48,498 nt of DNA, taken from assembly GCA_017561835.1 (NCBI GenBank), contig JAFZBJ010000025.1:1-48498 (forward strand), written 5' to 3'. Of the stretch, positions 10,676 through 42,652 are shown in pieces. Source of the stretch: Candidatus Saccharimonadota bacterium (lineage in GTDB: Bacteria > Patescibacteriota > Saccharimonadia > Saccharimonadales > Saccharimonadaceae). The position numbers and the translations under genes are program-made. Below the pieces are notes generated by a model. That model was not told where the DNA came from and did no database searches. It was given only the letters and a program-made list of their open reading frames with translations. How positions within the stretch are numbered: the stretch's first letter is position 1; each line of letters begins with the position of its first letter.

Positions 10676-10821
10676 TGGAGGCGCCGTTGGCGAAGCCCGG
10701 TGACTGTTTTTCAGAGCGGAGGCACCGTTGGCGAAGCCCGTTGCCTACAAATTTTTTTGCAAAAAAAATTGGAGGCCCGTTGGCGAAGCCCGGTGCCGAA
10801 CATTTTTTGTGAAACAAAAAA
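10676..10821. repeat. Three palindromic copies of the tRNA-Cys 3' end
   Basis: Copies at 10676-10702, 10717-10745 and 10770-10796 each begin with GGAGGC.CCG, as the tRNA-Cys 3' end does on this strand (10822-10832), and continue TTGGCGAAGCCCGG/T so that the unit folds back on itself with a GGC-GAA-GCC tip. Next to the tRNA a perfect 10-base palindrome with a GAA centre (10801-10810, 10814-10823) overlaps the CCA end. No coding potential is seen. Confidence 0.8.
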
Positions 10822-10895
10822 TGGAGGCACCGACCGGAATTGAACCGGTGTACGCGGTTTTGCAGACCGCTGCGTAACCACTCCGCCACAGTGCC
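10822..10895 (-). tRNA. tRNA-Cys(GCA)
   Basis: Acceptor GGCACTG against CGGTGCC, anticodon loop CTGCAAA (anticodon GCA), T loop TTCAATT and an encoded CCA. Its 3' terminal 11 bases are the ones repeated three times downstream. Confidence 0.95.
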
Positions 10896-30366: not shown

Positions 30367-30405
30367 ATGGTACCTCCGATAGGACTCGCGCGAAAGCCCG
30401 AGTCC
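30367..30405. repeat. Copy of the tRNA-Arg(TCG) 3' end with added palindrome
   Basis: The 22 bases 30367-30388 repeat exactly those at 30429-30450, which are the CCA end, acceptor strand and T-arm part of tRNA-Arg(TCG). After them ggactcg (30382-30388) pairs with cgagtcc (30399-30405) around a GC-GAAA-GC tip. The unit sits downstream of the tRNA in its direction of transcription. Confidence 0.85.
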
Positions 30406-30429: not shown

Positions 30430-30506
30430 TGGTACCTCCGATAGGACTCGAACCTACGACCCTCTGTTCCGAAGACAGATGCTCTAGTCCACTGAGCTAC
30501 GGAGGC
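30430..30506 (-). tRNA. tRNA-Arg(TCG)
   Basis: Acceptor GCCTCCG/CGGAGGT (G1-U72), anticodon stem TCTGT/ACAGA, loop CTTCGGA (anticodon TCG), T loop TTCGAGT, CCA encoded. It is 16 bases downstream of tRNA-Arg(CCG) on the same strand, so the two are probably one transcript. Confidence 0.95.
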
Positions 30507-35502: not shown

Positions 35503-35517
35503 AGCCTAAAGCAGCAG

Positions 35518-35580
35518 AAAAGCGTAGCTTTTCAGCAGGCCGAGAGGCAATAAAAATAGAGAGCTTGCTCTCTTATTTTG
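35518..35580. terminator. Hairpins between tRNA-Ser and the DUF6512-like gene
   Basis: GAAAAGC/GCTTTTC near 35518-35533 and AGAGAGC/GCTCTCT (35558-35564, 35567-35573) with A/T tracts on both sides. The second probably ends both the tRNA-Ser transcript and the opposing membrane protein gene. Confidence 0.6.
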
Positions 35581-36145: not shown

Positions 36146-36159
36146 TGTAGCTTTAAAAA

Positions 36160-36245
36160 TGGTAGTCCGGCTGTAGCGATTTCGTGGTAGTACCGTTTAC
36201 GAAGTTCCGCGTACTACCATTTTTGTGAAACAAAAATGGTAGTAC
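36160..36245. repeat. Tandem copies of the tRNA-Met 3' end and a perfect 16-base palindrome
   Basis: tggtagtaccg, the last 11 bases of the CAU tRNA on this strand (36237-36247), recurs exactly at 36185-36195 and nearly at 36160-36170. GTACTACCATTTTTGT (36211-36226) and its exact reverse complement (36230-36245) flank GAA. The second arm includes the tRNA acceptor strand and CCA, so the tRNA's own 3' end could pair with downstream RNA. Confidence 0.9.
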
Positions 36246-36313
36246 CGACTGGGATCGAACCAGTGACCTTGGGCTTATGAGTCCCACGCTCTAACCATCT
36301 GAGCTACGGTACC
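36237..36313 (-). tRNA. tRNA with CAT anticodon (elongator Met likely)
   Basis: Acceptor GGTACCG/CGGTACT (G1-U72), D stem GCTC/GAGC, loop CTCATAA (anticodon CAT), T loop TTCGATC, CCA encoded. It lacks the unpaired 1-72 and GGG/CCC features of initiator tRNA. Because a tRNA-Ile(TAT) is present, Met elongator is more likely than lysidine-type Ile2. The top of the anticodon stem has an A31-G39 mismatch. Confidence 0.88.
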
Positions 36314-42571: not shown

Positions 42572-42618
42572 CTAGCACTATTGCTTGCCCCTTGGGCCGC
42601 AACAATAGTGCTAATTTT
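42572..42618. promoter_or_regulatory. Extra inverted half-sites upstream of dnaK
   Basis: CTAGCACTATTG (42572-42583) and CAATAGTGCTA (42603-42613) are inverted copies. AATAGTGCTAATTTT (42604-42618) is also inverted with AAAAATTAGCACTATT (42621-42636), which overlaps the first CIRCE element. The shared core is TAGCACT. Confidence 0.75.
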
Positions 42619-42625
42619 GTAAAAA

Positions 42626-42652
42626 TTAGCACTATTGACAATGGAGTGCTAA
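42626..42652 (+). promoter_or_regulatory. CIRCE operator 1 overlapping the dnaK -35
   Basis: TTAGCACTA-N9-GAGTGCTAA, one mismatch from the HrcA consensus TTAGCACTC-N9-GAGTGCTAA. The promoter's TTGACA lies in the spacer. Confidence 0.92.

Follow-up and report, generated by a model that had tools for sequence, protein, structure and literature searches.

Folded modules that repeat the tRNA 3' tail downstream of Saccharimonadia tRNA genes

Many tRNA genes of the Saccharimonadia, tiny parasitic bacteria, are followed by a module in which the 3' tail of the same tRNA recurs according to one plan: direct tail (D), terminator-like hairpin (t), inverted tail (I), core (c) and again direct tail (D). 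The tRNA-Met(CAT) locus of the window, by which we mean the whole stretch of 48,498 nucleotides analysed here, is one short case of this module. The window is part of a draft Saccharibacteria genome of 625 kb, from a genus in which Candidatus Nanosyncoccus alces is also placed. On the available evidence, tRNA-tail modules are the outcome of a recurrent rearrangement or of miniature insertion, and not a tRNA-finishing device. We found no account of such tail copies in Saccharibacteria in the literature, which was searched largely outside subscription papers.

At tRNA-Met, the first direct element, the terminator-like hairpin and the inverted copy together form a perfect 16-bp palindrome (36211-36245). 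A preliminary description of this DNA had reported the arms 36211-36226 and 36230-36245 as exact reverse complements around GAA, and so they are, the second arm holding GTACTACCA; the two further tail copies that it placed downstream are there as well, one exact over 11 nt and the other with one base lost. Read in sense, the parts follow one another in the order in which Table 1 lists them, with 15 nt between the two downstream copies. One segment thus stands in the direct-inverted-direct order by which a fold-back triplication is recognized; 36185-36245 is the clearest example that the window offers. Perfect hairpins with arms of at least 16 and loops of 3-10 occur twice in the window and never in 20 shuffles, indicating that the palindrome at tRNA-Met is not a product of chance. 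The short core/loop is found in identical sequence in two other species (L228 and L234; G, C and L are our handles for genomes, contigs and loci). The other perfect 16-bp short-loop hairpin of the window, CAATAGTGCTAATTTTGTAAAAATTAGCACTATTG at 42603-42637, has no tRNA close by. Another palindromic region, at 570-660, contains GTGATCTGTAGCGTGCGAAGCACGCGTCGATCAC and GGAGTTCGCCCGCCGAAGGCGGATAGCGAGCGTCCTCTCC and resembles the T-loop insert hairpins of tRNA modules, with no tRNA near it in the window. The trailer of tRNA-Ser(TGA), at 35503-35580, is like the longer, hairpin-rich tRNA-Ser modules seen elsewhere (L267, L293, L295) and is devoid of a tail copy.

Table 1. tRNA genes of the window and the parts of the modules that follow them
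Feature	Position	Strand	Sequence or remark
tRNA-Met(CAT)	36237..36313	-	ARAGORN and Rfam
First direct element D0, last 9 nt of the tRNA-Met 3' end	36245-36237	-	GTACTACCA
A/T terminator-like hairpin between D0 and I	36220..36236	-	TTTTTGT-TTC-ACAAAAA
Inverted copy I of the tRNA-Met tail	36211..36219	-	TGGTAGTAC
Short core/loop preceding D1	36196..36210	-	GCGGAACTTCGTAAA
Direct copy D1, exact last 11 nt of tRNA-Met	36185..36195	-	CGGTACTACCA
Second direct copy D2, decayed, one base lost, with T-run	36155..36169	-	CGGACTACCATTTTT
Three tandem decayed modules after tRNA-Cys(GCA) (10822-10895)	10676..10821	-	GGCACCG-GGCTTCGCCAA-CGGTGCC-TCCA type
Module after tRNA-Arg(TCG) (30430-30506)	30368..30405	-	hairpin GGACTCG-G-GCTTTCGC-G-CGAGTCC, then exact copy of the last 21 nt

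To see how widespread such copies are, the last 30 nt of each tRNA were compared with its own downstream 250 nt at a score of at least 11, with the upstream sequence and the 5' end of the tRNA as controls. In five genomes of the genus, a downstream own-tail copy was present at 49/220 tRNAs, one of these positives being a spurious low-complexity 'tRNA' (L111), compared with 1/219 in the upstream control and 1/220 for the 5' end; at 78 further species loci, the corresponding counts were 30/185, 0/181 and 0/185. This search, of the kind that the preliminary description had proposed, turned up recurrent copies against at most one in any control, in genomes that, except for E. coli, are all drafts or MAGs, and with presence counts that vary with the score threshold. 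Exact copies of 14 nt number 60, and every one is downstream and in sense, with no upstream or antisense case; 51 of them fall within 120 nt. The distribution is patchy: a tail copy is present at 8/50 tRNA-Met loci, so that filled and empty sites can be set side by side (for example L007 and L006). At the tRNA-Tyr of G003 (L106:10025-12294), a second tail copy lies 2.25 kb downstream, with one 566-aa ORF, to which no function was assigned, in between.

The copies have defined boundaries. Their starts cluster at tRNA positions 59 (the commonest), 56 and 66 and their ends coincide with CCA, the homology reaching at least 5 nt further in only 12/60. In 97/108 modules, the inverted copy in the spacer is a better match to the tail of its own tRNA than to those of other tRNAs (p=5e-17). 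It mainly covers the T-arm part of the tail; for the acceptor part the signal is weak overall (p=0.03), and in the F2 class of the window's own genus it was not seen. CCA is drawn into a downstream hairpin more often in module-bearing tRNAs (p=1e-11), and in 51/69 cases the own copy is the best pairing partner of the flank when compared with swapped pairs (p=4e-7). Modules of the own genus are short and comprise F1, with the copy at +59 to +66 behind a symmetric terminator and with acceptor/T-stem-like helices with NCCA; F2, with the copy at about +41 to +68 after a hairpin with a TTC-type loop; and F3, with an 11-nt copy, to which tRNA-Met of the window belongs. Across Saccharimonadia, copy lengths fall into classes of 18, 19 and 21 nt, the tRNA-Met class being shorter. 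The module is usually placed after the tRNA's own terminator, which at some loci is duplicated too (L253, L068, L374, L411); it forms tandem arrays at L224, L294 and the tRNA-Gln of G190, and several modules lie kilobases from their tRNA. The copies are often perfect to the tRNA although the hairpin arms have drifted, which could reflect conversion or selection. Most likely, modules expand in tandem, decay and get lost.

Longer modules, with a core of 50 nt that reads roughly RCGCRCAG-hairpin-CGAGCAYG, are found in other families of the order. A covariance model of this core, R1, built from ten examples and yielding rough E-values, detected it in 37/195 genomes of the class, with up to 25 copies per genome. 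Among 58 hits examined, 43 have a tRNA on the same strand no more than 400 nt upstream, and a tail copy accompanies 31 of them. Over 69 sequences, 92% of the cells are paired, with 188 double-change cells compared to 54 +/- 7 after shuffling; the 758 pairs comprise 680 Watson-Crick, 20 GT and 12 AC, so wobble is rare, and one C-A mismatch is retained in 65/69 sequences. Covarying helices, as expected of a structured RNA, were found in the core of these other families only, and the folded strand could be DNA or RNA. A perfect 18-nt copy is kept in 20/48 core-anchored modules; identity to the tRNA is high at positions 59-65, partly by construction since these positions anchored the alignment, and drops to about 0.7 toward CCA, the acceptor/CCA part having decayed in about 30% of these modules. 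A class-wide search with strict filters, by which absence is not certain, gave no R1 core in the own genus. The link between the short module of the window and the long modules is thus one of architecture, without sequence homology. In four genomes, the single Xer-type recombinase gene and a core module are separated by about 1-4.5 kb (G190:C3:13028/14268, G149:C2:24210/27356, G119:C4:57747/60951, G030:C5:9281/4496), which may reflect shared gene order.

Because the terminator and the T-arm, both natural hairpins, are the points at which the D-t-I-c-D order turns, we infer two successive fold-back template switches. That the modules are fold-back duplications, or inverted triplications, turning at terminator and T-loop, with a structured core, which may be mobile, where the T-loop turn is made, is a reading to which we give about even chances. 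DNA synthesis would turn at the terminator hairpin and copy the tail backwards; it would turn a second time, at the palindromic T-arm or, for the 11-nt class, at the acceptor stem, copy the tail forwards to CCA, and then resume. The core would be located at this second turn; in other families it is the conserved folded 50-nt motif, spread among tRNA loci and probably a miniature mobile element. A fold-back origin would explain why each copy matches its own tRNA, why it lies downstream in sense, why its boundary falls in the T-loop and why the terminators are symmetric. Fold-back alone is insufficient for a homologous core at different tRNAs, which requires mobility or gene conversion; no enzyme mobilising the core was found. 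It is conceivable, if somewhat doubtful, that the folded core is itself a minimal mobile or replicating palindrome, one that would target the near-universal T-loop of tRNAs, duplicate the tail on insertion, encode no enzyme, and count the rtT repeats of E. coli among its products.

Plain tandem duplication of tail and trailer by replication slippage, with hairpins added later, would be in line with the tandem units and duplicated terminators at a few loci and with the tandem 178-bp repeat of E. coli rtT, but slippage yields neither an inverted copy nor a conserved core, and the homology mostly ends at CCA; we consider it decidedly unlikely. Still further from our expectation, and highly improbable, is reverse transcription of tRNA 3' ends, with the cDNA stopping at modified A58 and being re-inserted at the locus: the commonest copy does span exactly positions 59-76, yet copies also start at 56 and 66, the inverted copy is not predicted, and no RVT_1 domain (reverse transcriptase) was detected in G000, G002, G003, G004 and G030. 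The modules might instead act as functional structured RNAs, tRNA-like or minihelix, in 3' processing, in termination or as RNase P substrates. The strong covariation in the core, the tRNA-like helices of class F1 and the pairing of flank and own copy are compatible with such a function, as is the ability of the precursor to refold. Here the preliminary description was right, in thermodynamic terms, in supposing that the tail could pair with its downstream copy in RNA: on folding the precursor, the palindrome is predicted to beat an enforced cloverleaf by 7 kcal/mol (117-nt precursor) and 13 kcal/mol (181-nt precursor). Nonetheless, the usual position of the module beyond the tRNA's own terminator, the decay of the acceptor/CCA part, the patchiness across species and the paucity of wobble pairs (20 GT against 12 AC), fewer than RNA would lead us to expect, make a functional RNA an unlikely candidate. 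The associated suggestion of a role in 3' maturation fared less well, as a T-run directly follows CCA and the copy is missing at most tRNA-Met loci, an absence among relatives that the preliminary description itself had named as evidence to the contrary. With only 8/50 such loci carrying a copy, the modules are not a conserved maturation signal, and together with their position mostly past the terminator and the CCA end being least conserved in long modules, this leads us to disfavour a maturation role. A CCA-dependent function was rejected, the CCA end being the decaying part of the copy in long modules. A known RNA family was likewise discarded: when the window and six long-module loci were scanned against Rfam, only tRNA was reported at curated cut-offs.

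The preliminary description had also proposed repeated insertion by an element targeting the tRNA end. Recurrence at many tRNAs, variation between species, tandem arrays and the conserved core of other families agree with that idea. The copies are not integrase junctions, however: the serine-recombinase elements that do target these tRNAs join 6-8 nt from the CCA end, upstream of existing modules. Large serine recombinases are abundant. In the genome of the window, a 532-aa enzyme with Resolvase, Recombinase and zinc-ribbon domains, encoded opposite to tRNA-Glu(TTC), ends inside this gene with an overlap of about 40 bp (L475:490-2122, G000:C8:17990-19622), and of 30 PF07508 loci sampled, 20 are convergent with a tRNA 3' end and mostly extend tens of bases into it. 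The same arrangement exists in relatives at Asn, Gly, Lys, Met, Pro, Trp, Arg, Leu, Gln and Val tRNAs, and in one genome the DNA between tRNA-Gly or tRNA-Pro and its distant module encodes a large serine recombinase that faces the tRNA. Core and copy are found at the far end of islands of 5-16 kb, and some gaps between modules bear genes, so that copies as attR junctions of integrative elements targeting tRNA 3' ends, for example by large serine recombinases, were favoured until the true junctions were read. In six recombinase-bearing islands, the distal junction consists only of CGCACCA, GCACCA, GGAGCCA, GGGAGCCA or CGACCA, followed directly by the native terminator and only after that by the module; the copy was in no case exactly at the island end. 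As the junction keeps 6-8 nt and terminator and module lie beyond it, the copies are not serine-recombinase attachment sites, and the islands split pre-existing tRNA-module pairs. Moreover, the pairing of the core covaries, unlike a duplex binding site, and G004, a 96%-complete genome, has 10 copies but no PF07508 hit. We therefore judge an attR origin very unlikely. Other enzymes were absent or did not match: there was no dedicated tyrosine integrase in module-rich genomes, with just one Xer-type hit each in G000, G004, G190, G030 and others, no Y1 transposase (HUH; REP, IS200/605) in 12 genus genomes, and no TnpB-type nuclease domain PF07282 (OMEGA guide RNA) in 6 genomes; reverse transcriptase was set aside with them. 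A phage origin was dropped after two exact hairpin motifs, the only ones tried, were not found in IMG/VR.

The rtT repeats of E. coli have long been without explanation. On direct reading of tyrV/rttR, the last 19 nt of tRNA-Tyr recur in sense at +160, +338 and +516, a spacing of 178 bp, and each unit has palindromic hairpins directly ahead of AATCC..CCA, besides an inverted tail (GGGGAAGGAT) and a GACC..GGTT hairpin. As in the Saccharimonadia modules, the tail from T-loop to CCA (18-19 nt) is repeated downstream in sense at the tyrT/tyrV tRNA-Tyr operon, and inverted tail and hairpins precede the copy. rtT differs in occupying one locus in E. coli K-12 as examined, in its 178-bp units and in another core sequence; Rfam cmscan of the window and the six long-module loci returned no rtT match. 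Inverted triplications (DUP-TRP/INV-DUP, ODIRA model), in which a direct-inverted-direct order comes with palindromic junctions, have been described as a class of rearrangement and proposed for large eukaryotic copy-number variants (PMC10766186). The modules share this order and the palindromic junctions, but are 20-150 bp long, involve bacterial tRNA tails and have a conserved core in some families.

Like elements integrated at tRNAs by tyrosine or serine integrases, the modules show tRNA 3'-end direct repeats flanking an insert downstream of an intact tRNA; however, these copies are not serine-island junctions, and the short modules are without enzyme or cargo. Integron attC/cassette arrays, too, consist of short folded units that are repeated and share few conserved bases, in some cases with genes in between. 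In G190, the tRNA-Gln and tRNA-Met arrays have genes between modules in the absence of a recombinase; at tRNA-Gln (L402:2689-10010), tail copies at +161, +331, +4600 and +7230 are separated by accessory genes for secreted proteins with Ig domains. In contrast to integrons, G190 has no additional integron integrase-like recombinase (a single Xer-type hit), and the modules possess long tRNA-specific direct repeats. REP/BIME, the Rickettsia palindromic elements and other bacterial palindromic repeats are short dispersed palindromes with stem covariation; the modules differ in that they are found at tRNA tails and include the tail sequence of their host tRNA, and no Y1/RAYT transposase was found in the genus genomes checked.

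An odd single locus of E. coli thus has counterparts in Saccharimonadia, where in some genomes they occur at a fifth or more of the tRNA genes. The counterparts follow a stereotyped direct-inverted-direct plan and in several families have a covarying core, providing a comparative dataset on how rtT-like repeats arise. The pattern suggests that fold-back replication errors turn at tRNA terminators and T-arms or that these are targets of miniature elements, and cautions that tRNA 3'-end direct repeats alone are no proof of an integrated element.

Two further observations concern large serine recombinases. Paired genes for these enzymes also occur away from tRNAs (G001:C3:72091-73774, G003:C4:57914-59727, G012:C33:17402-19088). 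In G009, the tail of tRNA-Lys (L479:14576-14836) differs at two bases from a 34-nt downstream copy beside a serine recombinase gene, and looks as if the 3' end of the tRNA had been replaced.
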